64,000 nucleotides of DNA, taken from assembly GCA_947473805.1 (NCBI GenBank), contig CANJGB010000015.1:1-64000 (forward strand), given 5' to 3'. Source of the stretch: Alphaproteobacteria bacterium. GTDB taxonomy: Bacteria > Pseudomonadota > Alphaproteobacteria > Ferrovibrionales > Ferrovibrionaceae. Shown in pieces: positions 8,063-23,086 of the stretch. The notes beneath the pieces are model-generated. The model searched no databases. It was not told the origin of the DNA and saw nothing but the letters and a program-made list of their open reading frames with translations. The translations under genes and the position numbers were made by a program. Positions within the stretch are counted from its first letter, which is position 1. Each line of letters opens with the position of its first letter.

Positions 8063-9605
8063 CGGCGCGGGCCGCCCATTCCTCGCGGAGTTTTGACTTG
8101 AGCACCTTGTTGGCGCCGCTGAGCGGCAGCGGCGCGGTGCGCAGTTCCAGCGAGCGCGGAATCTTGTAGCCGGCGATCAGCGCGCGGCAATGGGCCTGGA
8201 TCGCGGCGAGGTCGGGCGTCTCGCCCGGGCGCGGCACGATGACCGCATGCACCACCTGGCCCCAGCGCGGATCCGGGATGCCGATCACGGCGCAGTCGGC
8301 GACGGCGGGGTGCGACGCCACGGCGTTCTCGACCTCGGTCGTGTGCACGTTCTCGCCGCCGGAGATGATCATGTCGTTCTTGCGGTCGACCAGGAACAGG
8401 AAGCCGTCGGCATCGAGGTAGCCGAGGTCGCCGGTGTGCATCCAGCCACCGCGCAGGGTGTGCGCCGTCACCTCAGGCTGGTTCCAGTAGCCTTTCATCA
8501 CTGTCGGTCCGCGCACCACGATCTCGCCCACCGCACCGGTCGGCTGTTCGACATCGGCGTCGTCCACCACGCGCACCTCGGCCAGCATGGCGGCGCGGCC
8601 GGCGGAGCGCAGGCGGCCGGCATTGGGCCCGTCGAATACGTGGTGCTCTGGCCCCAGTTGCGTTGCGGTCGGCGACAACTCCGTCATGCCATAGGCCTGG
8701 AACAGGGCGACATGGGGAAACAGTTTGATCAGGCGGCGCAGCAGCGTCTCGTCGATGGGCGACGCGCCATAGGCGATCATGCGGAGCGATGCCGTGTCGT
8801 AGTCATGGAATCCCGGCAGGTCGGCCACGACGCGCAACATGGTCGGCACCAGCAGCACGATGACCACGCGGTGCTGCTGGATCGCCGCCAGCACCGCCGC
8901 CGGGTCGAATTTCGCCAACAGGACCTGGGTCGTGCCCAGCACCGTGGCGCTGACCGCGCGGGCAATGGCGGCCACGTGGAACAACGGCGCGACGTGCAGG
9001 TGGGTACTGTCGCCATCCAGCGGCACGGCGGCCAGCGCATTCGCCGTATTGGCCCACAGGTTGGCATGGGTCAGCATCACGCCCTTGGCGCGGCCCGTCG
9101 TGCCGCCGGTGTAGATGATGAACGCGGTGTCGTCGCCGCGCGCGCCCTGGTCGGGGATCGGCGCTGCATCGGTCAACAAGCGTTCGTAGTTATCGTCGGC
9201 GACGATGATGTGGCGCAGCGATGGCACACGGGCGCGCAACGTTTCCGCGACACTGCGGAACGCGGGATCGACCACCAGCACGACCGGCGTGCAGTCATTG
9301 GCCTGTGCGGCCAGTTCCGGCGCGGCGAGGCGGTGGTTCAGCGGCACCGCGACGCCGCCGGCCCACAGGGCAGCGAACAGGCTTTCCAGCAGTCGGTGCG
9401 TGTTGGGTGAAAGCACCGCGACACGGTCGCCGGCCTGCACGCCCATACCTGCCAGCGCGCCGGCCAGCCGGGCGACCCGGTCGCGATAGGCGTGCCAGGT
9501 AATCACCGTCTCGCCATCGATCAAAGCCGGCGCCTCGCCCCGCCGGTCGGCGGCGCGGGCGAGGGCCAGCGTCAGGCCGGGGTAGGAATCGGGATACAAA
9601 GCCAA
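8046..9605 (-). CDS. AMP-binding acyl-CoA ligase
   Basis: An ANL-superfamily ligase of about 519 aa. It has the P-loop-like IYTGGTTGRAKGVMLTHANL, the AYGMTE motif, GWMHTGDLGYLDADGFLFLVDRKNDMI at the domain hinge, and the C-terminal catalytic Lys in the GANKVLKSKL segment. It activates a carboxylic acid to acyl-AMP and then acyl-CoA. No ATG fits the 5' end. A TTG at 9605 keeps the first conserved residues (LYPDSYPG); TTG at 9695 would overlap the FecR gene. It is the last gene of a minus-strand run with an enoyl-CoA hydratase, consistent with CoA-dependent catabolism. The chain length of its substrate is not evident. Confidence 0.88.
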   Translation of the reverse strand: MALYPDSYPGLTLALARAADRRGEAPALIDGETVITWHAYRDRVARLAGALAGMGVQAGDRVAVLSPNTHRLLESLFAALWAGGVAVPLNHRLAAPELAAQANDCTPVVLVVDPAFRSVAETLRARVPSLRHIIVADDNYERLLTDAAPIPDQGARGDDTAFIIYTGGTTGRAKGVMLTHANLWANTANALAAVPLDGDSTHLHVAPLFHVAAIARAVSATVLGTTQVLLAKFDPAAVLAAIQQHRVVIVLLVPTMLRVVADLPGFHDYDTASLRMIAYGASPIDETLLRRLIKLFPHVALFQAYGMTELSPTATQLGPEHHVFDGPNAGRLRSAGRAAMLAEVRVVDDADVEQPTGAVGEIVVRGPTVMKGYWNQPEVTAHTLRGGWMHTGDLGYLDADGFLFLVDRKNDMIISGGENVHTTEVENAVASHPAVADCAVIGIPDPRWGQVVHAVIVPRPGETPDLAAIQAHCRALIAGYKIPRSLELRTAPLPLSGANKVLKSKLREEWAARAVSPSR

Positions 9606-9615
9606 ACGTGACGTC

Positions 9616-10929
9616 TTAGGGGGCCGAGAACAACCCGACGTTCCGGGATGCTGTGCCGCTTCCCGTGCCGATGGTGCCCCCGCTGCTGTTGGCAACCGTC
9701 AGGGAGTGAGCGAGCTGGGTTGCGATGCCATTGTTGTTCTGGGGTTTTGTGTCGAAAACAATGCCGCATCCGCCTAGTCCGCAGGCCGAGCCGCTGAAGG
9801 ATTCGCTCGATGGGGGGATGCTGAATTTGAAGCTGGCAAGACCGCTGCCGGTGTTGAAGGACTGTGACGACAGGCCGGCACTGCCGGAGAACACAGAACC
9901 GTTGTTGACGTCGATGAACGAGCTGCCCCCGCCAACGCTTCGACTGCCGAAATTGATGTCGAGTGCGAAAATGTAGGTGCCGCCGCCGCTGATCGGGACG
10001 TTTTCCTGGTAGTAGTGGAATTCACCGGTCTGGACGCTGCGCAGGTCCTCGAACGTCGATTGTATGCTGTTGACCGTCTGGATCGCTTCGGTCGCGGCGT
10101 CGTTGGTGCGGCCGGAAAATTCGGCGATGCTGCGCTGGTCTCCCAGGCCCGGCAACGCGCCGGCGATGCTTTGCCCGGCGAGGTCCGTCGGATTGCCGCC
10201 GCCAGCGCCACCCGCCGTCGAGCCGCCCGCCGGCGGTGGCGGCGCGCCCAGCCGGCCGAGGACGCGCTGCGCGACCTGTGGCGGCACGGGGCCGATGACG
10301 ACCGGCTGGCCGGGAACGATCTGCGCGCCGAAGCCGGGGCGCGAGACCGGAAAACTGTCGTTGCCGGTGATAATGTTGATGCCACCCGGCGGGTCGCCCG
10401 TGTTGTTGCCGCCGCCCGGGCCGGCCAGGGCGACGAAACTGTTGCCGTTCTGAAGCACTTCGCCCCAGACGGCGGTTCCCCGAATGCCGATGGTCGCGTT
10501 CGGAACCTTTACCTGCATGTTGCGCGGCTCTGCACGCGCCACCTGGCCGGTGACGAAGCGGAACACGCCCTTGGTGACCGAGGCGCTGACCTGGCCGCGC
10601 TTGCTCGCCGGGTCGTAGACGAAGGTGTCGATCACCATTTCGCTGTCGGCCCCGATGGTGAAGGTGGTCTCGTCCAGCAGAACGATCTGCATTCCCGCGT
10701 CGGCGCCAGAGGTGATGCGGTTGCCGAGGAATATTGGCTCGCCGGAGCGGATCTGGCGGCCAACGATGTTGGGCTGTCCGCCCAGCAGGATCTGACCGCG
10801 CACGGCAGCCGACACGCCGGCCTGCTGTTCCTGCGCGATAGCCGCTATCGGTCCGGCGAAAGCCAGTCCTGTTCCCGCCGTCGCGGCGAATACGCGCGCG
10901 GCCCGACATGTTCGGCGTTTGGCATTCAT
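9616..10929 (-). CDS. Secreted FecR-domain protein
   Basis: This 437-aa protein has a twin-Arg-like, basic signal region (MNAKRRTCRAARVFAATAG) and a probable cleavage after AIAQ. A FecR domain spans about residues 45-150 (FLGNRITSGADAGMQI, DETTFTIGADSEM, VPNATIGIRGTAVWG). A Pro/Gly-rich linker follows near residues 215-250, then a Ser/Gly-rich beta-like C-terminus with two Cys (CGLGGC). There is no transmembrane anchor of the anti-sigma type, so signalling to a sigma factor is unlikely; surface or periplasmic structural roles are more likely. GGGGAAA precedes the ATG. It lies between a 2OG-oxygenase-like gene and the acyl-CoA ligase on the same strand. Confidence 0.78.
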   Translation of the reverse strand: MNAKRRTCRAARVFAATAGTGLAFAGPIAAIAQEQQAGVSAAVRGQILLGGQPNIVGRQIRSGEPIFLGNRITSGADAGMQIVLLDETTFTIGADSEMVIDTFVYDPASKRGQVSASVTKGVFRFVTGQVARAEPRNMQVKVPNATIGIRGTAVWGEVLQNGNSFVALAGPGGGNNTGDPPGGINIITGNDSFPVSRPGFGAQIVPGQPVVIGPVPPQVAQRVLGRLGAPPPPAGGSTAGGAGGGNPTDLAGQSIAGALPGLGDQRSIAEFSGRTNDAATEAIQTVNSIQSTFEDLRSVQTGEFHYYQENVPISGGGTYIFALDINFGSRSVGGGSSFIDVNNGSVFSGSAGLSSQSFNTGSGLASFKFSIPPSSESFSGSACGLGGCGIVFDTKPQNNNGIATQLAHSLTVANSSGGTIGTGSGTASRNVGLFSAP

Positions 10930-10991
10930 CGCGTTTCCCCAACTTGGTCGCCGGGACAGGATAGCCCATATTCCCGCGGCGACCATGACGA

Positions 10992-11630
10992 TCACATGGG
11001 TTTGCGTTCCTTGGTGACGATGTTGAACGCCACCGAGATGCGCTCGCCGCGCCCGAAGAACGGATGCACGAAATGGTGCAGCCAGGCGGGGAACACCACC
11101 ATCAGGCCGGGGATTGGCTCGAACAAATGACGCGCGCCCAGGATCGTGCCGGGCATCTGGGCCATGGTGGCGCCCGCGCGCGGGTCGAACAGTTCCAGCC
11201 GGCCGTTGAACGCCGTCGCGGGCTCCGGCGTGCCGGCTCGCACGTAGTAGGTGCCAGACCACAGGCCGCCCGGGTGGTTGTGCATCGAGTTGTACGCGCC
11301 ATGGCGCGACACGTTGGCCCAGCCGTCGAGGCTGAAGTCGAAATGGCGCTGGGCCGCGGTCGACAGCGTGATCATTCGCGTCACCGCGATGGTCATGTCG
11401 ATGATCCGCTGGCGCAGGGTCGAGACGCACGGCTCGGTCCGGCTGAAGAAGTCCGCGCTGCCGTGCCAGCCGCCGACATTGCTGCGCGTCATGCCGCCGC
11501 CCTGCCGCTCGAGATCGAGGATCAGCCGCGCCAGGTCGTCGTTCAGCCCGTCGCTGTCGGGCCAGGGATAGCCGATGACCGGCGTCGCGAATGTCATCGC
11601 AACATGTTTGTCGAGCGCGAGGTCGACCAT
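10992..11630 (-). CDS. Putative 2OG-Fe(II) oxygenase (TIGR02466-like)
   Basis: The 212-aa protein resembles the putative 2OG-Fe(II) oxygenase family TIGR02466. It has a central SMHNHPGGLWSGTYYV segment holding the likely metal ligands, then FDPRAG, PGLMVVFPAWLHHFVHPF with the distal His, and a closing RISVAFN with the 2-oxoglutarate-binding Arg. Such enzymes hydroxylate protein or small-molecule targets, and members are common in marine bacteria and phages. The start at 11630 is 5 bases after the enoyl-CoA hydratase stop, so the genes are probably cotranscribed. The target is unknown. Its presence in a CoA-catabolic run is unexpected. Confidence 0.75.
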   Translation of the reverse strand: MVDLALDKHVAMTFATPVIGYPWPDSDGLNDDLARLILDLERQGGGMTRSNVGGWHGSADFFSRTEPCVSTLRQRIIDMTIAVTRMITLSTAAQRHFDFSLDGWANVSRHGAYNSMHNHPGGLWSGTYYVRAGTPEPATAFNGRLELFDPRAGATMAQMPGTILGARHLFEPIPGLMVVFPAWLHHFVHPFFGRGERISVAFNIVTKERKPM

Positions 11631-11635
11631 GGCGT

Positions 11636-12415
11636 TCAGCGCCCTTCGTAGACCGGCTTGCGCTTCTCGACGAAGGCGGCGACCGCCTGCAGGTGGTCCT
11701 GCGAGCGGCTGAGGTGGGGCTGCAGTTCCACTTCGCTGGCGATGGCGGATTCCAGCGTGCTGATGCCGCGGGCAAAGGCCAGCTTGGTCATTGCGGTGGC
11801 CAAAGGCGGCATCTCGGCATAGCGCCTCGCCACCGCGATGGCGGCGGCCATGGCGTCGTGGGCGACCTCGTCGGCAATGCCCATGCGCGCCGCCTCCTCG
11901 CCATTGATGGTCGGCGACAGGCTGATGATGTGCTTGGCGCGCGCCGGGCCGACGCGGTTCGACAGGCTCCACATCAGGCCGAGATCGGCCAGCAGGCCGA
12001 CACGGGCGAAGGCCGGCGTGAAGCGGGCGGTGCGGGCCGCGACGACGTAGTCGGAACACAAAGCCAGTGACATGCCCATGCCGGCGGCAACGCCCTCGAC
12101 GCAGGCGATCACCGGCTTGGCGCCCTCGGACACCAGGCGGATGATGCGCGGCTCCTCGCGGAACAGGTGCTGCAAAGCCAGCAGTTCGCGGTCGGGAATG
12201 TTGTCGCGGAAACTGGACACATCGCCACCGGCACAGAAATGCCCGCCCGCGCCGGTCAGGATGATCGCGCGGCAGGTCTTGTCGATCATCAGTTTCGACA
12301 AATCCTCGCACATGGCGGCGCGGACATGGACCGGCAGCGCGTTGCGCTTGGTCGGGTTGTCGATGGTGATGGTGGCGATGACGCCGTCACGGGTCAGATG
12401 ATGTTGGGCCGTCAC
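11636..12415 (-). CDS. Enoyl-CoA hydratase/isomerase-family protein
   Basis: This 259-aa crotonase-fold protein has an ITIDNPTKRNALP N-terminal strand, oxyanion-hole segments HFCAGGDVSSF and GVAAGMGMSLAL, and the C-terminal KRKPVYEGR helix. The usual catalytic Glu of the xxPE motif is replaced (TPAFARVGL), so activity may be isomerase-, hydrolase- or lyase-like rather than standard hydration. It probably acts on acyl-CoA esters produced by the ligase two genes downstream. The ATG at 12415 sits 37 bases after the SnoaL-like gene. Confidence 0.88.
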   Translation of the reverse strand: MTAQHHLTRDGVIATITIDNPTKRNALPVHVRAAMCEDLSKLMIDKTCRAIILTGAGGHFCAGGDVSSFRDNIPDRELLALQHLFREEPRIIRLVSEGAKPVIACVEGVAAGMGMSLALCSDYVVAARTARFTPAFARVGLLADLGLMWSLSNRVGPARAKHIISLSPTINGEEAARMGIADEVAHDAMAAAIAVARRYAEMPPLATAMTKLAFARGISTLESAIASEVELQPHLSRSQDHLQAVAAFVEKRKPVYEGR

Positions 12416-12452
12416 GGCGTTCCCCCTGTTTGAAGCGCGCGCATTCTACCGA

Positions 12453-12935
12453 TTATCCCCGGCGCGGTGCAGTGGCATGACGGGGCATCGGCCCGCTGGC
12501 CGGGGCTTCCAGCGCCAGGGCGATGTCGGTGCCGCGGCGGGCGAAGCGCCAGCCCTCGGGCGTCAGCTTGAACTCGTCGCGATATTCGCCGACGACGGCC
12601 GGGCCGGTCAGCACGCCGGCGCCCTTGCCGTCGTCGGTGCCGGGCTTGGCCACGTAGAAGCTGAAATAGGCGCGGCCGCGCGCCCGCGTGGCGTCGATCA
12701 CGTCGATCACCACATTGGTGCAGTGGTGCCGGCTGACCTCGCCCTTGGGCCGGGCGTCCAGATAGGCGCGTATGGCGGCGGGGCCGGTGATCGGCCCCTT
12801 CCAGGTTTCCCACACCCCGTCGGGCGCCCAGAGGGCGACGAACTGGTCATATTCCTGGAAATCCACGTGATTGCAGAATCCGTAGGCCAACCGGGTGCAT
12901 TCGTGTTCGATGGCAATCCGTTCCATCCGGTCCAT
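12453..12935 (-). CDS. SnoaL/NTF2-like protein
   Basis: A 160-aa NTF2-fold protein of the SnoaL_4/ring-hydroxylating-dioxygenase-beta-like type: ECTRLAYGFCNHVDFQEYDQF, FVALWAPDGVWETW, an HHCTNVVIDVID strand, and a cone-shaped fold length. Members include isomerases, hydratases and non-catalytic subunits. The start at 12935 has a strong GGAGGA at 6-11 bases and was preferred over an earlier codon at 12983. It opens the minus-strand run (SnoaL, hydratase, oxygenase, FecR, ligase) and is divergent from the amidohydrolase across a 76-base gap. The specific function is unknown. Confidence 0.8.
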   Translation of the reverse strand: MDRMERIAIEHECTRLAYGFCNHVDFQEYDQFVALWAPDGVWETWKGPITGPAAIRAYLDARPKGEVSRHHCTNVVIDVIDATRARGRAYFSFYVAKPGTDDGKGAGVLTGPAVVGEYRDEFKLTPEGWRFARRGTDIALALEAPASGPMPRHATAPRRG

Positions 12936-12950
12936 GTTTTCCTCCGCTTT

Positions 12951-12965
12951 TGGCGCCTGACGCCA
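12951..12965. promoter_or_regulatory. Dyad in the divergent promoter region
   Basis: TGGCG (12951-12955) and CGCCA (12961-12965) form a perfect 5-bp inverted repeat with a 5-base spacer. It lies between the divergent SnoaL-like and amidohydrolase genes, just before an AT-rich TTATAT that could be a -10 element for the plus-strand gene. It may be an operator, but the arms are short and no regulator is encoded nearby. Confidence 0.25.
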
Positions 12966-13011
12966 TGTTATATGTTCCCCCACAGGGCGGACATCGCCGA
13001 AGGAGGCAAAA

Positions 13012-14190
13012 ATGTTGACGGAGTTGGTTAAGACCGCGGGCGCTCAGGGAATTCAGGACGGCATCCTGGGCAACCTGCTGGATTGCGATGCTCACCTGTA
13101 CATGGAACCCGAGGTCATGGAAGACATCGTCCGTGACATGGGCGCCGGCTTCGTTCTGGCCTATGTGCGCCAGCAGATCGCCACCGGCCAGGTGGTCAAG
13201 GATCGCGCGCGCAACCGTTCCGAACTGTGGGCGGTCAAGGGCCTGGCCGCGCTCGGCAGCTGCGACGCTGACGAGCGGGTCGAGGCGATGAACGCCATGG
13301 GCATCAAGGCCCAGCTGATTTTCCCGAACACGGCACTGCGCGAACTGCGCCTTGACGGCGACAGCGCCCGCGCCGCCTGCCAGCGCTACAACGACTACGC
13401 CATCGACTGGACCAAGAAGACCGGCAATCGCGGCCGCGTCGTCTGCCAGATCAATATGAGCACGGTCGAGGGCGCGATTGCCGAACTGGACCGCGTCATC
13501 AAGAAGGGCGCCAAGGCAGTCATGCTGCCGTTCTCGCGCGGCCCGGCCGGCGTTTCGCCGGCGCATGCGATGTGGGACCCGTTCTGGGCCCGCATCCAGG
13601 AGGCCAATATCCCGGCCCTGCTGCACATTGGCGGCGGCGGCCTGGTCACCAGCGACAAGGACGATCCGATCATTCCGCCGCGCGAGTTCAGCGACGCGCC
13701 GTCGCTGAAGGCGGCGTTCCCCTACCGCCCCGGCGCGGAAGAGGCAATCGGCCCCTACTTCTTCCTGATCGCGCACATGGCGTGCGAGACCTGGCTCGTC
13801 ACCATGGTGATGGGCGGCGTGTTCGACCGCTTCCCGAACCTGCGCTTCGGCATCATCGAGTGCGGTGCATCGTGGGTCGGCCCGATGGCCAAGCGCATGG
13901 AAATGCACACCGAGAGCATGGTGCGCGCCGGCGTCACCTTCAAAATGCGGCCGTCGGAATACCTGCGCCGCAACGTGCGCGTGACGCCGTACTGGCAGGA
14001 GAATGTCGGCGAGATCGTCGCCCAGTCGGGCGGCCTCGACGAGGTCTACGTGTTCAGCACGGACTACCCGCACCTCGAAGGCACGCGCGATCCGATCGGC
14101 CGCCTGCGCCGGTCGATGACCAATCTCGACAAGTCGTACGAGCAGGACTTCTTCGTCGATAATGCGAAGCTGCTGTTCGCCGACGCCTGA
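13012..14190 (+). CDS. Amidohydrolase-family (ACMSD-like) metal-dependent hydrolase
   Basis: This 392-aa TIM-barrel protein belongs to the amidohydrolase 2 family. It has an N-terminal DCDAHLYMEP in the position of the D/HxH metal motif, a middle IPALLHIGGGG strand with the metal His, EMHTESM, and the closing FSTDYPHLEGTRDP with the catalytic Asp. Relatives are non-hydrolytic decarboxylases (ACMSD, gamma-resorcylate) or hydrolases acting on aromatic ring-cleavage intermediates. GAAGGAGG precedes the ATG. It is divergent from the SnoaL/hydratase run and is followed by a strong terminator. Substrate uncertain. Confidence 0.88.
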   Translation: MLTELVKTAGAQGIQDGILGNLLDCDAHLYMEPEVMEDIVRDMGAGFVLAYVRQQIATGQVVKDRARNRSELWAVKGLAALGSCDADERVEAMNAMGIKAQLIFPNTALRELRLDGDSARAACQRYNDYAIDWTKKTGNRGRVVCQINMSTVEGAIAELDRVIKKGAKAVMLPFSRGPAGVSPAHAMWDPFWARIQEANIPALLHIGGGGLVTSDKDDPIIPPREFSDAPSLKAAFPYRPGAEEAIGPYFFLIAHMACETWLVTMVMGGVFDRFPNLRFGIIECGASWVGPMAKRMEMHTESMVRAGVTFKMRPSEYLRRNVRVTPYWQENVGEIVAQSGGLDEVYVFSTDYPHLEGTRDPIGRLRRSMTNLDKSYEQDFFVDNAKLLFADA

Positions 14191-14212
14191 TCGCGCCGAC
14201 GCGGTTGTTTAC

Positions 14213-14249
14213 CGGGCCCGCTGTCGCTGACAGCGGGCCCGAGCTTTTT
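14213..14249 (+). terminator. Strong rho-independent terminator
   Basis: A perfect 13-bp GC-rich stem (14213-14225 with 14229-14241) and a GCT loop are followed by a run of five T at 14245-14249. This ends the amidohydrolase transcript, 22 bases after its stop codon. The convergent DUF6600-like gene ends 9 bases further on. Confidence 0.92.
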
Positions 14250-14257
14250 CTGCAGCC

Positions 14258-15736
14258 TCAATTGCAATTGTCGCCGCGGCACCGCTGCTGCGGGCGCTCA
14301 CGCGGCGGGCCCTGTTGTGGGCGCTCGGCGCGGTCGGGACGTGCTGATTGTTCCGGCCGCGGTGACTGACGCTCGTGCGGCGGCTGTGCGGCGGCCGGCA
14401 CCGGTGTCACAGCAGGGGCGGGCACGTTGCGCACATTCTCGCGCGGGCCGCGGTCTCGCCAGCGTTCGTCACGGCCGGGCCGGTCATCGCGGCGCATCAC
14501 CGGCGGCGCGGCGCGCGGCGCCACGGGCGCAGCCTGAGGCGCAGGCACTGATGTGGCGGGGGGCTGGAGGAGGACCTGCGGCGGTGCCTGGCGCGGGAGG
14601 GTCGCGCCGATGGCGCCGTCGCGGCGGCGGAAATTGTCGGACCGGTCGCGGCGGTCGAAGTCACGCCGGTCGAAGTCAGGGCGCTCGTGGCGCGGCACGA
14701 CATTGACGTTCAGGCGCTGCACATGGTCGGGGCTGGCGCGGTAGTGCGGCTGATAGGCCTGGCGCGGCCCCAGCGGCGTCCAGCCGCCGCGCGGCCTCGA
14801 CCCGTCGTGGAACAGGACAAGGGCAGGGGCATAGACCGGGCGGGCCTGGCGATAGCCGGGCCACCAGGCCCAGCGGTCGTGCACATGCACCCAGCGGCCA
14901 TAGTGAAACGGCGCGAAACCCCAGGGCTGGTCGTCGATCCACGTCCAGCCCCACGGCGCGACCCACGCCCAGCGGCCCTGGCTGTAGGGCGCCCAGCCCG
15001 CGGGTACGGCGCGCGGATACCAGACCGCGCCATAGTCGGGCACTTCCTGCCAGATGCCGGCGGCATCCAGATCCTGGTAGCCCGGCATGTCGGTCGACGC
15101 GTAGCGGGCGGCCTGGGCCGCTTCCTGGTCGCGCTGCTGCGCCCAGTCATCGAACATGGTTTTCATCGCGGGGGCGGAATAGACGTTTTGCGTTTCGGCG
15201 CGCACGTCCACGGCCTCGCCGGGACGCACGGTGATCGACGTGCGCGGCAGGTTCACGCGGGCGAAGCCGTCCAGCGCGACGATGCGCACCGGTGCGCCGA
15301 AGCCCATTGCCTCCACGTGATACATGCCGGGCGCCAGAACCTCGACCTGGCCGGCGGGCGTGCCGATCAGCACGGGCTGGCCAGATGTCAGGTAGCTGAC
15401 CCGGACATTCGCCACACCCTGCTGAAGTTGCAGCGCGATGGCGGCATCGTCGAGGCGGGCGATCATGACGCGGGTGTCGTTGTCGAGACGCAGGGTCACG
15501 GCGCCGAACTGCACCTCGCCGCGTGCGCCGGCTTGTGTGGCAACGGACGCGCCCGCGGCGACCGGATAATTGGGTACGGCGGGCGCCCATGCCTCGTTCG
15601 CCGCGCCCTGCAACAGGACGCCGCCTTCGACGTAGGCGATGCGGCCGACACGCTCGGGCGGATCATCCGCCCAGGCGGCGGCCGGCGCCGCCCCCAGCAG
15701 CAGCGCAATCAGATAGCCGACATAACGCGCGCCCAT
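14258..15736 (-). CDS. Secreted FecR/DUF6600-like protein with Trp-rich core and Pro/Arg-rich tail
   Basis: This 492-aa protein has a signal peptide (MGARYVGYLIALLLGAAPAAAWA) and a FecR-like beta domain at about residues 30-190 (GRIAYVEGGVLL, GASVATQAGARGEVQFG, LRLDNDTRV). A DUF6600-type Trp/Tyr-rich block follows at about 245-305 (GIWQEVPDYGAVWYP, WAWVAPWGWTWIDDQPWGF), then a long Pro/Arg/Gln-rich disordered tail. Localisation is periplasmic or outer-membrane-associated. The family function is unknown. AAAGGA precedes the ATG at 15736. It is divergent from the Sel1-repeat gene across 197 bases. The start was chosen at the signal peptide rather than an earlier in-frame codon. Confidence 0.82.
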   Translation of the reverse strand: MGARYVGYLIALLLGAAPAAAWADDPPERVGRIAYVEGGVLLQGAANEAWAPAVPNYPVAAGASVATQAGARGEVQFGAVTLRLDNDTRVMIARLDDAAIALQLQQGVANVRVSYLTSGQPVLIGTPAGQVEVLAPGMYHVEAMGFGAPVRIVALDGFARVNLPRTSITVRPGEAVDVRAETQNVYSAPAMKTMFDDWAQQRDQEAAQAARYASTDMPGYQDLDAAGIWQEVPDYGAVWYPRAVPAGWAPYSQGRWAWVAPWGWTWIDDQPWGFAPFHYGRWVHVHDRWAWWPGYRQARPVYAPALVLFHDGSRPRGGWTPLGPRQAYQPHYRASPDHVQRLNVNVVPRHERPDFDRRDFDRRDRSDNFRRRDGAIGATLPRQAPPQVLLQPPATSVPAPQAAPVAPRAAPPVMRRDDRPGRDERWRDRGPRENVRNVPAPAVTPVPAAAQPPHERQSPRPEQSARPDRAERPQQGPPRERPQQRCRGDNCN

Positions 15737-15933
15737 GGCCTGTGTCCTTTGATTTCCCGGCCAGTGTGGGCGCACGCATGGGGCGCGGATGTGTTCGAAC
15801 CAAAGCGGAATTGCGACTGCCGCGCTGCAACACGGCCTTAACTTTGCCACGGGCTTGGCCGCCCATTGTCACAGTCACGCGCGTAGGATCGACCGTTGTC
15901 TGGACGAGGCATTGGACGGCAGGAACTGGAAAA

Positions 15934-16854
15934 ATGGCATCGCTCGGCTTGGTACGCGCTCTCGCATTGACGGCAATGACGGCGGGCCTTGCGGATGTTG
16001 GCGCGTCGGCACAGAGCCAGACGGGCGAGCCGCCGCGAATATTGGGCATGATCGATGCCCGCGCCCTGCCGGCCGGTGTCGATCCCGATCTGAACGCCGA
16101 GCCCCAGCCCGAGACGGTCACCATCGCATCTGACCGCTCGGCGAATTACGGGCTGCTGTGGCCGCATCCGGTGACGAACCAGCGCCCCCGGGCCAAAGCG
16201 GAGGAGTCGAGACCGGCGAAACGCCCGGTGGCCGCAGCGCGTCGCGCGGAGCAGACAGCGGTCGCGCCGCCCGCGATGGCCGGCGCGGAAGACATGCGCC
16301 TGGCGCGTGCCTATGAGAAGGGTGAGGGCGTCGCGAAGGACGAGGCCGCCGCCGTGTGCCACTATCAGGCGGCCGCCGGCCAGAACAATGCCGAGGCGCA
16401 GTTCGCGCTCGGCTATCGCAGTGCCCACGGCCTTGGCCTGCCGCGCAACGATGTGGAGGCCGTGCGGTGGTATCGCCTCGCGGCGGCCAGCAACCATCCT
16501 CCGGCGCAGAACAACCTCGCGATGATGTACGCCGTGGGGCGCGGCGTGGCGCGCGACGACGCCACAGCCATGTATCTGTTCCGTACCGCGGCCGCTGGCG
16601 GTTATGGCCCGGCGCTCACCAACCTCGCACTTGTTTACGAGACCGGGCGTGGCGCGCCACGCAACGACAGCGAGGCGCTGACCGCTTATGCCCGCGCGGC
16701 CGCCAGTGGTTACGTGCCCGCGAAAAAGAAGCTTGGCCTGATGTACGCGAGCGGGCGGGGTGTTCCGCAGGACGACCAGATGGCGCAGTTCTGGCTGCAG
16801 TCAGCCCAAGGTTCGAACGCATCCGGAAAGACCGGACAAGGAGTTTCCCCATGA
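15934..16854 (+). CDS. Exported Sel1-repeat (SLR) protein
   Basis: This 306-aa protein has a signal peptide (MASLGLVRALALTAMTAG, cleavage near ASAQ) and a charged linker. About four Sel1/TPR-like repeats follow at residues 120-295, each with an A...YE.G.GV..D..A....Y..AA pattern: AYEKGEGVAKDEA, YRSAHGLGLPRND, MYAVGRGVARDDA, VYETGRGAPRNDS, MYASGRGVPQDDQ. Sel1 repeats form superhelical protein-binding scaffolds, often in envelope assembly. Its TGA overlaps the ATG of the next gene (ATGA), so the two are translationally coupled. It is divergent from the DUF6600-like gene. The partner is unknown. Confidence 0.85.
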   Translation: MASLGLVRALALTAMTAGLADVGASAQSQTGEPPRILGMIDARALPAGVDPDLNAEPQPETVTIASDRSANYGLLWPHPVTNQRPRAKAEESRPAKRPVAAARRAEQTAVAPPAMAGAEDMRLARAYEKGEGVAKDEAAAVCHYQAAAGQNNAEAQFALGYRSAHGLGLPRNDVEAVRWYRLAAASNHPPAQNNLAMMYAVGRGVARDDATAMYLFRTAAAGGYGPALTNLALVYETGRGAPRNDSEALTAYARAAASGYVPAKKKLGLMYASGRGVPQDDQMAQFWLQSAQGSNASGKTGQGVSP

Positions 16855-17762
16855 CCGTTTCGCCCGTCCCGTTGCATCGTGATGGCGGCATCCACGTCGC
16901 GGCCGCGGACATGAATGGCCTGGTCGAAACGCTGCGCGGCGAGGGCGGCGTCGCGTTGATGATTGTGCCTCGGGGAACGGGCGGTGAGAAGGCCGCCGAG
17001 GATCTTCATGCGGTGGCGCCGTCGAACGACATCTTGTTCGGTGGCTCGGCACCGACTCTGACGTTTGACCGGTTCGACGATCTTCTGGCTCTCGCGCTTG
17101 CCATGGAGCCCGCAACAGCCGGGCCGGCCGATGTCCAGGCCCGGCTGCGCCGATTGCAGCGGCAGGGACGCATGGCGCTGGTTGTCCTCGACGGCGCCGA
17201 GGGGCTCTCGCGTCATGTGCTGCTCGGGCTGCAGGCGTTCGTGGAAAATGTCTGGCCAGCCGCGTTCGGCGTCGTTCTCGTCGCGGGCCCGGAAATGCGC
17301 GACCGGCTGGATAAGCCGGCGAACGATCCGCTGCGCTACCTTTTCGCCGCCATTGTGGACCGGGCAGGACCGCGTATCGCGCCAAATGCCGAAGCGATGG
17401 CAAAGGCCGGGCCGGACGCGGACCCGCCGCGCACACGTCGTGAACTGCGCGCCGAGTTCGGCCCTGCCGCGTCAGGTGGAGAACGCGGCCGCGTGGCCCC
17501 TGGTGAGCCGCGGCTGGCTCTCGACGCGTCGCGCCGCCGTGCCGAACCGATTGCCTTCCGAGAAGCGCCCCTGCCGCTTCGTCCCCTGGCGCCGGCTGCC
17601 GGGCGGTGGCGCTGGCGGGTGGTTGCAGCCGTGGCCGTGCCGGTTATCGCCGCGGGCATATTTGCGTGGCGCCAGGGGCTCCTGTCGACAAGTAACGTCA
17701 CCGGGCTGGCCGCGACTCCGGTCGACCCGGGCTTTATCGAGGTTGCGCCTGGCGAAAAATAA
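16851..17762 (+). CDS. Membrane-anchored, degenerate GspA/ExeA-like protein
   Basis: Not a firmly recognised family. The 303-aa protein has a segment ALMIVPRGTGGEKAAEDL (about residues 36-53) where an ExeA/GspA ATPase has its P-loop, and MALVVLDGAEGLS (about 107-119) plus VVLVAGPEMRDRL where GspA has Walker B and sensor 1. The key Lys/Thr and Asp-Glu are altered, so ATP hydrolysis is doubtful. One transmembrane helix lies at about 254-272, with a short C-terminal tail facing the periplasm. It is coupled by ATGA to the Sel1-repeat gene, suggesting a two-component envelope complex. The relationship to GspA is my inference. Confidence 0.55.
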   Translation: MTVSPVPLHRDGGIHVAAADMNGLVETLRGEGGVALMIVPRGTGGEKAAEDLHAVAPSNDILFGGSAPTLTFDRFDDLLALALAMEPATAGPADVQARLRRLQRQGRMALVVLDGAEGLSRHVLLGLQAFVENVWPAAFGVVLVAGPEMRDRLDKPANDPLRYLFAAIVDRAGPRIAPNAEAMAKAGPDADPPRTRRELRAEFGPAASGGERGRVAPGEPRLALDASRRRAEPIAFREAPLPLRPLAPAAGRWRWRVVAAVAVPVIAAGIFAWRQGLLSTSNVTGLAATPVDPGFIEVAPGEK

Positions 17763-17817
17763 GCTCCGGATTTTATCGCCCTTGCCGTAACCCCCCGGCT
17801 GGCTTACTTCGGCCGGC

Positions 17818-18714
17818 ATGACTTCCGCCTATCTTGCGATCGAGGGGCTTGAGGCCGAACTCGAATTCGAGCTCGGCCCGCGCATCATTGCCCGCCATGG
17901 CCTGCTGCGCGTGGCCGAGGGCGCGGGCGATGCGGCTTGGGCGGCGAACATCTGGCACGATGTGGTGGAAACACCGGTCGCCTCCATCGGCGATGCGGCG
18001 ACGCAGCTGCGCGCCGTGCAGCGCAACTGGTCGATGTACGCGCCGCTGCACCATGGCCGCGCCAAGCTGATCGAGGCGAAGCTGCCGCACGTGGCGGCGA
18101 AGCCGCTGGTGTTCCCCGCGCCGGCGCCGGCCGCGCCGCTGGGGGCCTGGACGCTGCTGGCGCCGGACCGCCTGTTGTATGCGGCGCGCTGTTCCAGCGC
18201 GGTGCCGAATGGCGAATGGACGTTCGTCGAAGACCGCGTCGGTCCGCCGAACCGCGCCTATCTGAAATTGTGGGAGGCGCTGACCCGCCTCGGGGCGTTG
18301 CCGAAGCCGGGCGAACTGTGCCTCGACCTTGGCGCCAGCCCCGGCGGCTGGACCTGGGTGCTGGCGCAACTGGGCGCGAACGTCGTCGCGGTCGACAAGG
18401 CGGTGCTCGATCCGCGCGTCATGGCACTGCCGAACGTCACGCTGCGCCAGGAAAGCGCCTTCGCCCTCGACCCCAAATCATACGATGCGGTCGACTGGCT
18501 GTTCTCGGACGTCATCTGCTATCCGGCGCGGCTGTTCAAGCTGATCGAGCGCTGGCGTGCGGCGGGACGGGTGCGAAATTTCGTCTGCACCCTGAAGTTC
18601 CAGGGCGAGACCGACCACGAAACCGCCCGCGCCTTCGCCAGCCTGCCCGGCGCGCAACTGTTCCACCTGCATCACAACAAGCACGAGCTGACGTTCGCGC
18701 TGCTGGGTGGCTAG
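17818..18714 (+). CDS. RlmM-like SAM-dependent RNA methyltransferase
   Basis: This 298-aa Rossmann methyltransferase has the SAM motif CLDLGASPGGWTWVLAQLGA near residues 168-187, AVDKAVLD, and WLFSDVICYP, with a THUMP-like or RlmM-like N-terminal half (GLEAELEFELG). This arrangement resembles E. coli RlmM, the 23S rRNA C2498 2'-O-methyltransferase, though it is shorter; FtsJ-type 2'-O-methylation is the likely chemistry. The Lys in LKFQGET could complete a KDK-type site. It is a single plus-strand gene whose TAG stop overlaps the stop of the convergent RcnB-like gene in CTAG at 18711-18714. Confidence 0.75.
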   Translation: MTSAYLAIEGLEAELEFELGPRIIARHGLLRVAEGAGDAAWAANIWHDVVETPVASIGDAATQLRAVQRNWSMYAPLHHGRAKLIEAKLPHVAAKPLVFPAPAPAAPLGAWTLLAPDRLLYAARCSSAVPNGEWTFVEDRVGPPNRAYLKLWEALTRLGALPKPGELCLDLGASPGGWTWVLAQLGANVVAVDKAVLDPRVMALPNVTLRQESAFALDPKSYDAVDWLFSDVICYPARLFKLIERWRAAGRVRNFVCTLKFQGETDHETARAFASLPGAQLFHLHHNKHELTFALLGG

Positions 18715-19157
18715 AGCCGCACCAGGTCCTCGATCGCATCCACGACCATGCCGCTGCCGATGGCGATCATCAGAATGTCGCTGGCGACCCGCACGTAGCG
18801 GTAGCCGGCCGGCGGCGGGGTGATGCGCATGGCCAGTTCGCGCGGCAGGTCGTAATAGACGACGTCGCGCGGCAGCGGCCTGCCCTTGGCCCATTTCTTC
18901 GCCTGGCCCGGGGGCATGCAGCCGTTATGCTTCTTGGCCAGGCCCGGCGGGCAATGGCCCTGCGTGATGCGGCCGGAATAATAGTCGTGAATATAGCCGC
19001 GTTCCTCGGGCGAGATGCGGATCTCGATGGAACCGCCGCCGCTCCGGCCATCCTGGCGGTCACGATCACCGCCCCGGCCATGTTCATTTTTGGCATCGGC
19101 AGGCACGACATTCAGCAGCATCACCGTGGCGATGGCGGCAAGGGTCGCGAATTTCAT
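18711..19157 (-). CDS. RcnB-family periplasmic protein
   Basis: This 148-aa protein has a signal peptide (cleavage near ADA-K) and a His/Asp/Arg/Gly-rich stretch. It has the RcnB-type ending GRPLPRDVVYYDLP, then ITPPPAGYRYVRVASDILMI and a GSGMVVDAIEDL helix. RcnB modulates nickel/cobalt efflux in E. coli, but most members of this family in alphaproteobacteria are uncharacterised, so a metal role is only tentative. The middle CPPGLAKKHNGCMPPGQAKK is distinctive of the longer subfamily. It shares the CTAG stop overlap with the RlmM-like gene. Confidence 0.75.
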   Translation of the reverse strand: MKFATLAAIATVMLLNVVPADAKNEHGRGGDRDRQDGRSGGGSIEIRISPEERGYIHDYYSGRITQGHCPPGLAKKHNGCMPPGQAKKWAKGRPLPRDVVYYDLPRELAMRITPPPAGYRYVRVASDILMIAIGSGMVVDAIEDLVRL

Positions 19158-19219
19158 GATCGTCCCCAACGAAAAGGCAGCTGACGGCTCAACGGCGGGG
19201 TAGGGTAACGGTTCCGCGA

Positions 19220-20221
19220 CTATGCACGGCGGTAAATAGCCCACGCCGCCTTTCCGGCGCGACCAGTTGCGAGTTCTTTGCCATAGGCAGACCAGACGGC
19301 CCGGCATTTCTCGCGCGCCACTGCGCCGTCGCCGCCATAGACGAGGAAGAACGTGCCCGTCGGCAGCGGCGCCAGCGCACCGCGCACCCGGCGGGTCCAG
19401 AAGGTCGCGGCGCTCTCGCTGCTCTGGCTCAGTGGCAGCCAGCGATTGGCCAGCAGCGAATGGACCAGCTGGTCGTCGATGACATATTCGTCGAGGCCGT
19501 TGGTTGGCGGATTGACCATGACGAGACCCGGCGCCGGATAGCGCAGGCGCGGCGCCAGCTCCAGCATGTCGGCTTCGTGCACGGCAGCCTGCGTGTGTCG
19601 CGCCAGATCGACACCGCGGTCGATCTCGTCGGCCAGCGCCATCAACACGGCCTCCGGTGTCGCGGCGCGTTTCAGATAGCGCCGCCAGCCGGGGCCGCGC
19701 AACTGCCTCGGGTCGTGGCTGAGCAGGATGTCGAAACTGCCGTCGGCTGCGGTCGCGAAGCCCATGATCCAGCGCAGTGCCAGATAGCGATGCACTGCGG
19801 CCACCGGTTTCGGCCAGGGTGCGTGGTACAGGCGGTCGAAAATATCGGCTACCGGTTCCAGCAGGTAATCGCAGGCGAAGTGGAAGCTGGGCGTATGCCG
19901 GCGCAGCTGCGGATTTTTCTGCGCCAGCAGGTCGCGTACCGCGGCGCGGTCGACGGTGACGCCGCCGAACAGGGCGCGCGCGGCAATGGTGGTCCGCGGC
20001 GCCAGGTCGTTCACCACGACGCGGCCGGCGCCGCCTGCCGCAAAGGCCAGCGGCAACAGGCACGAGCCGGCAGTCAGGTCGACATAGGTCAGGTCGCGCC
20101 ACTCGCTGCGCGGCAGGATGGCGGTGAAGGCATCGACCATGGCCGGGGCTAGGTCGGGAATGCTGCCGTCCAGCGGCAGCATGGCGCTGCGCAAGGCGGG
20201 CCAGGGCAGGGGCCTGTTCAT
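19220..20221 (-). CDS. Putative DNA/RNA adenine-type methyltransferase
   Basis: This 333-aa protein has a SAM-type glycine loop (VDLTAGSCLLPLAFAAGGAG), an acidic VVNDLAP that fits motif II, and VNPPTNGLDEY, a variant of the N6-adenine (N/D)PP(Y/F) catalytic motif with Thr in place of the aromatic residue. The order resembles D12/alpha-class adenine methyltransferases, but no exact family is recognised. No restriction gene is adjacent. Its ATG overlaps the TGA of rlmJ, so it is coupled to a known rRNA methyltransferase, and an RNA target is possible. Activity with the NPPT variant is uncertain. Confidence 0.6.
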   Translation of the reverse strand: MNRPLPWPALRSAMLPLDGSIPDLAPAMVDAFTAILPRSEWRDLTYVDLTAGSCLLPLAFAAGGAGRVVVNDLAPRTTIAARALFGGVTVDRAAVRDLLAQKNPQLRRHTPSFHFACDYLLEPVADIFDRLYHAPWPKPVAAVHRYLALRWIMGFATAADGSFDILLSHDPRQLRGPGWRRYLKRAATPEAVLMALADEIDRGVDLARHTQAAVHEADMLELAPRLRYPAPGLVMVNPPTNGLDEYVIDDQLVHSLLANRWLPLSQSSESAATFWTRRVRGALAPLPTGTFFLVYGGDGAVAREKCRAVWSAYGKELATGRAGKAAWAIYRRA

Positions 20222-21042
20222 CGCACCAGCCGCCAGCCGGCGCCACGCCCGCGCGCCAAGGCATCGGACAGCCACGGCATCGTGCGCTCCAGCAACTGGT
20301 CGAACTGCCATGGCGGGTTGAGCAGTGCCAGGCCGGAGCCATTGAGCCCGCCCGGCGTCTCCAGCGCCTGCACCCACAATTCGACCGCCAGCATCTCGAC
20401 GCCGAGCATGTGCAGCTCTGCCAGCAGGCCCGACGCCGTGCCCGGTTCCTTCAGCGGATACCAGAAGGCGAACTGGCCGGTCGGCCAGCGCTTGACGCCC
20501 TGGGCCGCCGCGCGGGCGATGCGCTCGAACTCGTCGGTGACCTCGAACGGCGGATCGACGAACACCAGGCCGCGGCGCGGTGTCGGCGGCAGCAGCGCCT
20601 TCATCGCCAGGTAGCCGTCGCCGGCATGAACCGACACGCGTTTGTCACCCCCCAGCGAGCGGCGCAGCAGGGCCGCATCGTCCGGATGCAGTTCCAGCGC
20701 CTGCAGGCGGTCGTCGTCGCGCAGGGAGTCGCGGATCAACAGCGGCGAGCCTGGATAGGCGCGCGCGCCGACATCCGGGTTGCGCCGCCGCACGAGGTCG
20801 AGATAGGGCGCCAGTTCCGCCGGGGCGCCGCTGCGTTCCAGCACGCGCACGATACCGTGGCGAAACTCGCCGCCGCGCTGCGCCATGTCGGCGGTCAGGT
20901 CGTACAGGCCGGCGCCGGCATGGGTGTCGATGACCGAGAAGGGTTGCGGCTTCTGCTTCAGCCGCTCCAGCAGCATGACCAGGACGGCGTGTTTCATGAC
21001 GTCGGGGAAATTGCCGGCGTGGTAGCCGTGACGATAGTTCAT
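20218..21042 (-). CDS. rlmJ: 23S rRNA (adenine(2030)-N(6))-methyltransferase RlmJ
   Basis: This 274-aa RlmJ shows the family start MNYRHGYHAGNFPDVMKH, the DTHAGAGLYDL SAM loop, the catalytic DPPF in RGLVFVDPPFE, and WYPLKE. RlmJ methylates A2030 in domain V of 23S rRNA during ribosome assembly. The start at 21042 is fixed by the conserved N-terminus. It is in a minus-strand operon: glutathione peroxidase upstream (10-base gap) and a second methyltransferase downstream with ATGA overlap. No oddities seen in the sequence. Confidence 0.93.
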   Translation of the reverse strand: MNYRHGYHAGNFPDVMKHAVLVMLLERLKQKPQPFSVIDTHAGAGLYDLTADMAQRGGEFRHGIVRVLERSGAPAELAPYLDLVRRRNPDVGARAYPGSPLLIRDSLRDDDRLQALELHPDDAALLRRSLGGDKRVSVHAGDGYLAMKALLPPTPRRGLVFVDPPFEVTDEFERIARAAAQGVKRWPTGQFAFWYPLKEPGTASGLLAELHMLGVEMLAVELWVQALETPGGLNGSGLALLNPPWQFDQLLERTMPWLSDALARGRGAGWRLVR

Positions 21043-21052
21043 GGGTTTTGGA

Positions 21053-21622
21053 TCAAGTCTTGGGCAGGGCGGCTTCGATCGCCTTGATGACCTGCGGCGC
21101 GTTCGGCTCGACCGCGGTGGGAAACACGGCGGCCGGCTGGCCATCCGGGCCGATCAGGAACTTGTGGAAATTCCAGCGCGGCATGGCGCCTTCGCCCAGT
21201 TCCTGCGCCAGCCATTTGTACAGGGGGTGCGCCTTGCCGCCGATCACCACCAGCTTTTCGGTCAGCGGGAAATCGACCGAAAAGACGGTTTCGCAGAATT
21301 CCTTGATCTGGCCGTTGGTGCCCGGCTCCTGGCCGCCGAAGTCGTCAGACGGCACGCCAAGCACGACGAGGCCGCGGGCGCGGTATTTCTCCCACACGGC
21401 CTGCAGCCCCTCGTACTGGGGAGTGAAGCCGCATTGCGAGGCGGTATTGACCAGCAGCACCGCCTTGCCGCGGAAATCCGCCATGGGCAGGGGGGCGCCG
21501 TCAATGGCGAGGAACGTGAAATCGTAGGCCGACATGGACTTCCTCTGGGCCGCTTCCGGGGCCGCGCCGGGCGCCAGCAGCAGGGCGGCGGCAAGGACGG
21601 CAAACCTGAACAGGCGATGCAT
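21053..21622 (-). CDS. Glutathione peroxidase-family protein with signal peptide
   Basis: The 189-aa protein has an N-terminal signal sequence (MHRLFRFAVLAAALLLAPGA), so it should work in the periplasm, which is less common than cytosolic forms. It has the peroxidatic site VNTASQCGFTPQY with Cys rather than selenocysteine, Gln in FGGQEPGTNGQI and the Trp/Asn site WNFHKFLI, which complete the catalytic tetrad. It reduces hydroperoxides with thioredoxin or glutathione as electron donor; the donor cannot be read here. It is the first gene of the rlmJ operon. Confidence 0.9.
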   Translation of the reverse strand: MHRLFRFAVLAAALLLAPGAAPEAAQRKSMSAYDFTFLAIDGAPLPMADFRGKAVLLVNTASQCGFTPQYEGLQAVWEKYRARGLVVLGVPSDDFGGQEPGTNGQIKEFCETVFSVDFPLTEKLVVIGGKAHPLYKWLAQELGEGAMPRWNFHKFLIGPDGQPAAVFPTAVEPNAPQVIKAIEAALPKT

Positions 21623-21750
21623 CCGGGACCCTTCCTATGCTGGCAATCAGCCTAGTTCAACGGCGGCGCGGGGCAAGGGATAAAGGCCCGGAAATTAACC
21701 ATGCGTCAACCATGAGCGGTGATGATCGGCTTGGAATTGTGCAAGGTCGC

Positions 21751-22968
21751 ATGTCGCCGATGGCAATGGTGTCCAACGTCCTCCTGATCCTGGCCTACGG
21801 GCTGGCCGCCGCGCTGACCGCCGTGGTCGCGCCGCAGGCTCTTCCTGCGCTCGACCCGCGCGCGGGCCTGGCCATGGGTATCGGCCTGTTCGTCATCGCC
21901 GCCGTGGTGCACGAGACCATGGCCCGGCGCGGGGCGCAGCGCGCGCTCGACGCGGCATTGGGCGACATGCGTCGCAACGCCACCGAAACGGCCGCCGCCC
22001 TCGACGGCGCCCGGCGCGATATCGCGCGTCTGCGCCAGGAACTGACAACGATTGCCGCCGATGCGCGCCTGCAGGTGGAAGACGAACTGGCGCCGGTGCG
22101 CACGCTGCTGGGGGATCTCGCCCGCCGTCTCGACGAGCGCCATTCTACCGGCCCGCGCCTGGGCAGCAGCGTCGCCCCCATCGATCCCGCCAAGGTGCCG
22201 AAGCGCGAGCTGGTCGACAGCGACGAGGAACTGATGACGATCGTGCGCCAGGCGCTCGACGGCAACCGCGTCGACCTGTACCTGCAGCCGGTCGTGTCGC
22301 TGCCGCAGCGCAAGGTTCGCTTCTACGAATGTTTCTCGCGCCTGCGCGGCGACGACGGCACGGTCATCAGCCCCGACCAGTACCTGCCGCTGGCTGCCGA
22401 AACCGGCCTGATCTCGATCATCGACAACATGCTGCTGTTCCGCTGCGTGCACCTGATCCGCCGCATGGGCAGCCGGCGCAGCCGCGCCACCGGTTTCTTC
22501 GTCAACATTTCGGGCCATTCGCTGGCGGACGAGGCCTTCTTCGAGCAGTTCATCGATTTCCTCGACAGCGCCCGCGAACTGTCGGACGCACTGATCTTCG
22601 AATTCAAGGCCGCCGACATGGTGGCCGGGGGCGACGCCGTGCTCGGCCGCCTGGCGCGCCTGGTCGGCATGGGCTTCCGCCTGTCGATGGACGGTGTCGA
22701 CTCACTCGACCTCGACTTCGCCGCGCTGGCGAAGCGCAAGATCAGCTTCCTGAAGGTGGATGCCGAAATTCTGCTGTCGCCCGAGCGGCAGAAGGAAGCC
22801 TCGATCGCCACCGGCGACCTCAAGGCCGCCCTGGGGCGCGCCAATATCGACCTGATCGTCGAGAAGGTGGAGACCGAGCGCACCGTGGTCGACCTGCTCG
22901 ACTACGACGTCGATTTCGGCCAGGGCTACCTGTTCGGCGAGCCGCGCGTCGCCAAGGACGATATCTGA
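21751..22968 (+). CDS. TipF-like membrane protein with degenerate EAL domain
   Basis: This protein of about 405 aa has two transmembrane segments near the N-terminus (VLLILAYGLAAALTAVVA and AMGIGLFVIAAVVHE), a coiled-coil-like linker and an EAL fold. The catalytic signature is lost: FYECFSRLR replaces EALLR, SMDGVDSLDLDF replaces DDFGTG, and VEKVETE replaces AEGVET. This layout matches TipF of Caulobacter, a c-di-GMP receptor that places the flagellum. It is therefore more likely a sensor or localisation factor than a phosphodiesterase. AAGG precedes ATG 21751; ATG 21712 is an alternative. No flagellar genes are in the window. Confidence 0.75.
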   Translation: MSPMAMVSNVLLILAYGLAAALTAVVAPQALPALDPRAGLAMGIGLFVIAAVVHETMARRGAQRALDAALGDMRRNATETAAALDGARRDIARLRQELTTIAADARLQVEDELAPVRTLLGDLARRLDERHSTGPRLGSSVAPIDPAKVPKRELVDSDEELMTIVRQALDGNRVDLYLQPVVSLPQRKVRFYECFSRLRGDDGTVISPDQYLPLAAETGLISIIDNMLLFRCVHLIRRMGSRRSRATGFFVNISGHSLADEAFFEQFIDFLDSARELSDALIFEFKAADMVAGGDAVLGRLARLVGMGFRLSMDGVDSLDLDFAALAKRKISFLKVDAEILLSPERQKEASIATGDLKAALGRANIDLIVEKVETERTVVDLLDYDVDFGQGYLFGEPRVAKDDI

Positions 22969-23086
22969 CGCTTCAATCTGTAACGCGGGGCGTATAGACT
23001 CCGCCCGTCGGGGCTGCGCAGACCCCCGGCCCTCCCAGATGGTCCGCCATCCAAGTTCTGCTCGACCTTCGCGCCGGAGGCAGGGC

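Follow-up and report, generated by a model that had tools for sequence, protein, structure and literature searches.

Gene organization of the Sel1 locus

The locus described here lies in a 64,000-nucleotide (nt) stretch of an alphaproteobacterial genome of the family Ferrovibrionaceae (GenBank:GCA_947473805.1, contig CANJGB010000015.1, positions 1 to 64,000), hereafter the window. It comprises a gene pair encoding a Sel1-repeat protein and a membrane protein of 303 amino acids (aa), and a divergent gene encoding a FecR-DUF6600 protein. A preliminary description made from the letters alone had placed three reading frames here, the first two joined by an ATGA overlap, and had suggested that all three belong to a hitherto undescribed system for envelope assembly or scaffolding; the frames and the overlap were confirmed. 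The Sel1 gene (bp 15934–16854, plus strand) codes for a protein of 306 aa with five Sel1 repeats behind a Pro-rich N-terminal region, and the repeat assignment held, as the protein matched Pfam PF08238 in five stretches well over the cut-off (E 5.4e-32, 109.5 bits against 30.7). Its ATG at bp 15934 has an AGGA upstream (bp 15921–15924), and the N terminus, judged by eye without a signal-peptide program, is moderately hydrophobic and ends in an AxA-type site; the protein is probably exported. The later start chosen by the gene caller, bp 16048, was rejected; no ribosome-binding site is visible there and the signal-like segment would be lost.

The 303-aa gene (bp 16851–17762, plus strand) begins with the ATG at bp 16851 inside the ATGA, at a spacing of 7 nt from an AAGGAG (bp 16838–16843, by direct reading) that lies within the 3′ end of the Sel1 gene and is the probable ribosome-binding site, and the two genes are probably co-translated. 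The product was divided, by alignment, hydropathy and composition, into a core similar to ATPases of the ExeA/MshM type (residues ~21–175), a linker rich in Ala, Arg and Pro (residues 176–250; 24%, 16% and 16%, respectively), a membrane helix (residues ~253–275) and a 28-residue tail. A codon model scored the 303-aa frame positive to about residue 195. It was also noticed that in the block at bp 17136–17285 a frame on the reverse strand outscored the gene's own frame in this model (14.1 vs 7.0).

Probable relation of the 303-aa protein to ExeA-type ATPases

ExeA/GspA, MshM and related AAA_22 ATPases are encoded in gene clusters for type II secretion, the MSHA pilus or exopolysaccharides. A profile built from 11 ExeA-like proteins gave the 303-aa protein 13.6 bits, compared with 5.3 for the best of 4000 shuffles and 6.3 for the next best window protein, and hhalign aligned it with the same kind of set colinearly over 144 columns (E 3.6e-5, probability 71.5). 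In the genome search, residues 92–175 were 36% identical to an ExeA-like ATPase of another genome of the order, G004 (E 9.3e-5); a pairwise search against a three-protein window database extended the similarity to residues 27–174 (32% identity, E 3e-4). In addition, 3 of the 10 other genomes matching at E <= 0.01 in a sample of the class (G004, G245 and G024) did so in an ExeA-like ATPase. Because the profile score exceeds that of the shuffles, hhalign reports a low E value and the matches in relatives fall in ExeA-like proteins, it is likely, but not proven, that the 303-aa protein is distantly related to the ExeA/GspA/MshM ATPases over residues ~21–175, with a colinear core running from the P-loop region to the strand past Walker B. 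No match was found in NCBIfam, and the best match among sequences of solved structures was a ribosomal protein (E 0.03). A DamX-type fusion, which consists of an ATPase, a helix and a SPOR domain, was considered and rejected, as Pfam shows no SPOR domain.

The positions invariant in the 11 ExeA-like proteins include G50, G53, G55, K56, T57, D134, E135, G167, Q168, R186 and G234-x-P236-R237, and the alignment revealed the loss of most motifs that these make up. Walker A (GEVGTGKT) is aligned with PRGTGGEK, so that G-x-x-G-x-G-K-T, invariant in all 11, is missing; Walker B (DEAQ) is aligned with DGAE, within LDGAE, in which Asp114 is retained and the Glu of the invariant Asp-Glu is replaced by Gly; and GQPEL, a segment that we read as sensor 1, is aligned with AGPEM, lacking the GQ. 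Of the invariant lid motif G-x-P-R only the Gly is in register, the linker taking the place of the rest.

The membrane anchor proposed in the preliminary description is supported by the hydropathy profile. Since an RWRWR stands on the N-terminal side of the helix, the N terminus would be inside and the ATPase-like domain cytoplasmic according to the positive-inside rule. A hydrophobic helix-like stretch behind the ATPase domain was also seen by eye in three aligned ExeA-like proteins (L129, L131 and L135, the first and last from relatives), whereas the 28-aa tail past the helix and a location outside secretion or pilus genes, none of which occurred among the five neighbouring genes scanned, set the 303-aa protein apart from ExeA/GspA and MshM.

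Distribution in other genomes

The genome sets searched overlap and are samples rather than all genomes: 61 relatives, 18 genomes of the order, 385 of the class and 398 of the phylum. None of them yielded an ortholog of the 303-aa protein, and neither did collections of contigs, plasmids and viral contigs, of which the first and last detect close relatives only. The sole significant match in the order beyond the genome itself was the ExeA-like ATPase of G004; in the class sample, 11 of 385 genomes matched at E <= 0.01 (own included), with 9.3e-5 as the best value outside the own genome, and in the phylum sample the protein matched itself alone at E <= 0.001. At E <= 1, eight of the 18 order genomes matched (own included). 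Among the loci behind these weaker matches, two in the order (L006, L007) were short matches to unrelated proteins and one (L009) had none among its called genes, while in the class sample two (L018, L016) were unrelated and one (L019) was a match to an Era-like GTPase. This inspection left out L003, L004, L005, L008 and L010 of the order, as well as four loci of the class sample in which stops interrupt the matched region (L011, L014, L015 and L017).

Sel1-type matches occurred in all 18 order genomes, and the Sel1 query retrieved 11 loci from the contig collection, all with generic Sel1 proteins. Neither the 303-aa protein nor ExeA proteins gave a tblastn match at E <= 1 against these 11 loci; tblastn was relied on for four of them because the gene caller failed there, calling no genes in L104, L107 and L111 and missing the Sel1 gene in L110. 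No ExeA-like gene was detected with the ExeA profile or phmmer in 40 Sel1-bearing loci, many with flanks of ~1–1.5 kb; two phmmer rows had whole-sequence E values of 0.01 and 0.39, with best-domain E values of 9 and 1.7, respectively. In the reverse direction, the flanks retrieved around 36 ExeA-like loci, several of which are cut by contig ends, contained no Sel1 gene. These loci represent 11 of the 14 rows of one search, from which G004:C89, a partial row of 32 residues and a row read as RadA were left out, and 25 of the 28 rows of another (the remaining 3 being already in). As a positive control, the Sel1 detection found 28 of 30 Sel1 loci, one of which had supplied the model.

The MshN-MshM pair as a parallel

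The closest parallel to the window pair, by analogy and with no claim of descent, is the MshN-MshM pair. In the MSHA pilus cluster of Vibrio cholerae, mshM (ExeA-like) and mshN, which encodes a tetratricopeptide repeat (TPR) protein, carry consecutive locus tags, and deletion of mshM/mshN is reported not to have lowered surface pilus production (PMC4624765).

A pair of this kind is also present in the genome under study, on contig C30 (L127), where a gene for a 418-aa TPR protein with a hydrophobic segment (bp 6501–7757) shares 4 bp with an intact gene for an ExeA-like ATPase (bp 7754–8539; AAA_22, E 2.9e-21), followed by genes that we read as prepilin-peptidase-like and PilT-like. In a relative (L136), an ATPase gene of this kind comes, as we read the sequences, after a secretin-like gene and before a TPR-like frame. 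The window pair resembles MshN-MshM in that genes for a repeat protein and an ExeA-like protein adjoin, and shares with the L127 pair the order, repeat protein first, and the 4-bp junction. It differs in that its Sel1 protein has a signal-like start, whereas MshN is a membrane-anchored TPR protein, in that its ATPase is degenerate, and in lying outside any MSHA or type IV pilus cluster. Both TPR and Sel1 domains are modules of protein-protein contact. A literature search found no description of such a Sel1/ExeA-like pair and nothing joining Sel1 with DamX and AAA; a search on Sel1 repeats with GspA returned a study of Legionella type II secretion.

The divergent FecR-DUF6600 gene

The FecR-DUF6600 gene (bp 14258–15736, minus strand) is separated from the Sel1 gene by a gap of 197 bp and encodes a probably exported protein of 492 aa that matched PF20245 (E 1.7e-26, 92.7 bits, cut-off 27). 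Its own FecR-like N terminus had no Pfam match to FecR, which was matched in 3 of 4 homologs aligned with it (best E 2.2e-6). The core contains 14 Trp in 134 aa and the tail is 20% Arg and 19% Pro. The DUF6600/FecR identity, Trp-rich core and Pro/Arg-rich tail reported earlier are thus sound, and with a FecR-like N terminus, a Trp-rich DUF6600 core and a low-complexity tail the protein is an ordinary member of the PF20245 family. The literature collection searched had nothing on DUF6600.

Homologs were present in 5 of the 17 other genomes of the order, and in each of the five the readable flanks lacked both a Sel1 gene and any relative of the 303-aa protein; in two of these (G004 and G005) the contig end cuts the 3′ side, but the upstream side, where the pair would lie, is covered. 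By eye, the DUF6600 gene stands behind a similar transporter-like gene in two relatives (L089, bp 6752–9676; L090, bp 2–2348), and it therefore has its own neighbour there. The gene is probably independent of the pair. A second FecR-domain protein (PF04773, E 8.1e-9) is encoded at bp 9616–10920 on the minus strand, ~3.3 kb from the DUF6600 gene.

Other neighbouring features

The immediate neighbours of the pair are the amidohydrolase, DUF6600 and FtsJ-like methyltransferase genes. The last of these (bp 17818–18714, plus strand; PF01728, E 2.8e-12) lies downstream of the pair, outside it, and served as a synteny anchor: strong matches (E below 1e-120) were found in 12 of the 17 other order genomes, and in all five inspected (G003, G006, G007, G009 and G012) the upstream neighbour was something else. 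It overlaps convergently by 4 bp a gene for a small protein (bp 18711–19157, minus strand) that matched RcnB/DUF1236 (E 4.2e-6) and has a signal-like start. Rfam gave no match in bp 9000–23000, and a promoter scan found none. Between the ends of the amidohydrolase and DUF6600 genes, a GC-rich hairpin of 13 pairs followed by a T run (bp 14213–14241) was noticed, which could be a terminator, although the scan count of terminator-like sites is not above chance (1, compared with a shuffle mean of 2.1).

Interpretation of the locus

We tentatively favour the reading that the two genes form a lineage-specific, coupled pair in which a membrane-bound pseudo-ATPase serves as an adaptor anchoring an exported Sel1 protein, with the DUF6600 gene independent. 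Under this reading, translation of the 303-aa gene would be coupled to that of the Sel1 gene, and the Sel1 protein would reach the periplasm by export. The C-terminal helix would hold the 303-aa protein in the inner membrane; its cytoplasmic domain may descend from an AAA_22 ATPase of the ExeA/MshM type and, judging from the motifs lost, would have given up normal ATP binding and hydrolysis. By analogy with MshN-MshM, the 303-aa protein may then serve, without catalysis, as an anchor or adaptor that recruits the Sel1 protein through its short periplasmic tail or the helix, the divergent gene being an envelope gene of its own. The fuller version, in which a pseudo-ATPase derived from ExeA/MshM was repurposed outside secretion and pilus clusters as the membrane adaptor of a periplasmic Sel1 scaffold, so that a secretion accessory ATPase pair gave rise to an ATP-independent two-gene envelope scaffold, we consider unlikely.

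Several observations weigh against the adaptor reading. The ATPase homology is weak, and the Pfam AAA_22 match remains under the cut-off (E 0.044); the degenerate GspA-like core with altered Walker motifs of the preliminary description is supported at the level of this weak homology. The codon model is about zero across the linker and the tail. AlphaFold2, run from the single sequence, gave low-confidence models, with a predicted local distance difference test score (pLDDT) of 41 for the full length and 51 for residues 1–180. In Foldseek, the low-confidence full-length model gave weak matches of AAA+ type, with ORC, MuB, clamp-loader and TnsC proteins ranked high, mixed with pantothenate synthetases and none at E <= 0.001, and in VIA-align it reached Z scores of at most 6.1 with mixed folds; the core-only model had no AAA protein among the best 50 matches listed, the TRAP binding proteins and LysR domains found at Z <= 3.3 being uninformative. 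The ATGA junction is ordinary, since among the called genes of the window 4-bp overlaps occur in 6 of the 43 neighbouring pairs on one strand. The sets searched gave no ortholog that might reveal selection on the pair, the flanks retrieved around the 36 ExeA-like loci had no Sel1 gene, and the likeness to MshN is architectural only because Sel1 and TPR are different repeats.

If the ATPase likeness were spurious, the 303-aa protein would be an unrelated lineage-specific membrane protein, as the Pfam score, the lack of an NCBIfam match and the core-only model might suggest; the score above all 4000 shuffles, the colinear hhalign alignment and the strand-helix alternation in both (poor) models, which is compatible with a RecA-like core, make this decidedly unlikely. 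A decaying remnant of an ExeA-like ATPase, carried behind the Sel1 gene without present function, would account for the lost catalytic motifs and lid, the low-complexity linker without codon signal and the lack of orthologs in the sets searched. However, the 303 codons are open, the ribosome-binding site is strong, the membrane helix is in register and the codon model is positive over the core, and no frameshifted ExeA remnant was found in the other frames of bp 16701–18000; decay therefore seems somewhat unlikely.

The pair might instead serve signal transduction rather than assembly, with the Sel1 protein as an ExoR-like regulator in the periplasm and the 303-aa protein as its partner in the membrane. 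ExoR, a Sel1-type regulator, binds the sensor ExoS (PMC7327166). ExoR and RgsF are PF08238 proteins resembling the Sel1 protein in its five repeats and probable export, and the protein matched the ExoR model at E 1.9e-10, but with 40.4 bits against a cut-off of 450; other Sel1-type models also matched, the protein falling under every NCBIfam equivalog cut-off, and no sensor kinase was present among the five neighbouring genes scanned, making this quite improbable. The undescribed three-gene envelope system of the preliminary description could draw on the adjacency of the genes, with their short divergent gap, and on every protein having an export-signal-like start or a membrane helix. Against it, the searches of relatives and larger samples gave no ortholog of the 303-aa protein, the DUF6600 homologs of the order occur without the pair on their readable sides, and the FtsJ-like genes are likewise without it in the relatives inspected. 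Lack of co-occurrence of the three genes beyond the lineage had been named beforehand as evidence against such a system, and none was found as far as searched, so that we regard it as highly improbable.

The genes are real, their one peculiarity being that a Sel1 gene is coupled to that of a degenerate membrane protein of ExeA type, and a three-part system is unsupported. As the third gene seems unrelated, the locus is most likely a small lineage-specific oddity and not a new envelope machine. The negative result, that the three genes do not act as a system, weighs more than the positive one, which as a single lineage-specific pair without known orthologs allows little comparative testing. If the pair is functional, an accessory ATPase of secretion or pilus systems would have lost catalysis and survived as a membrane adaptor for a repeat protein.

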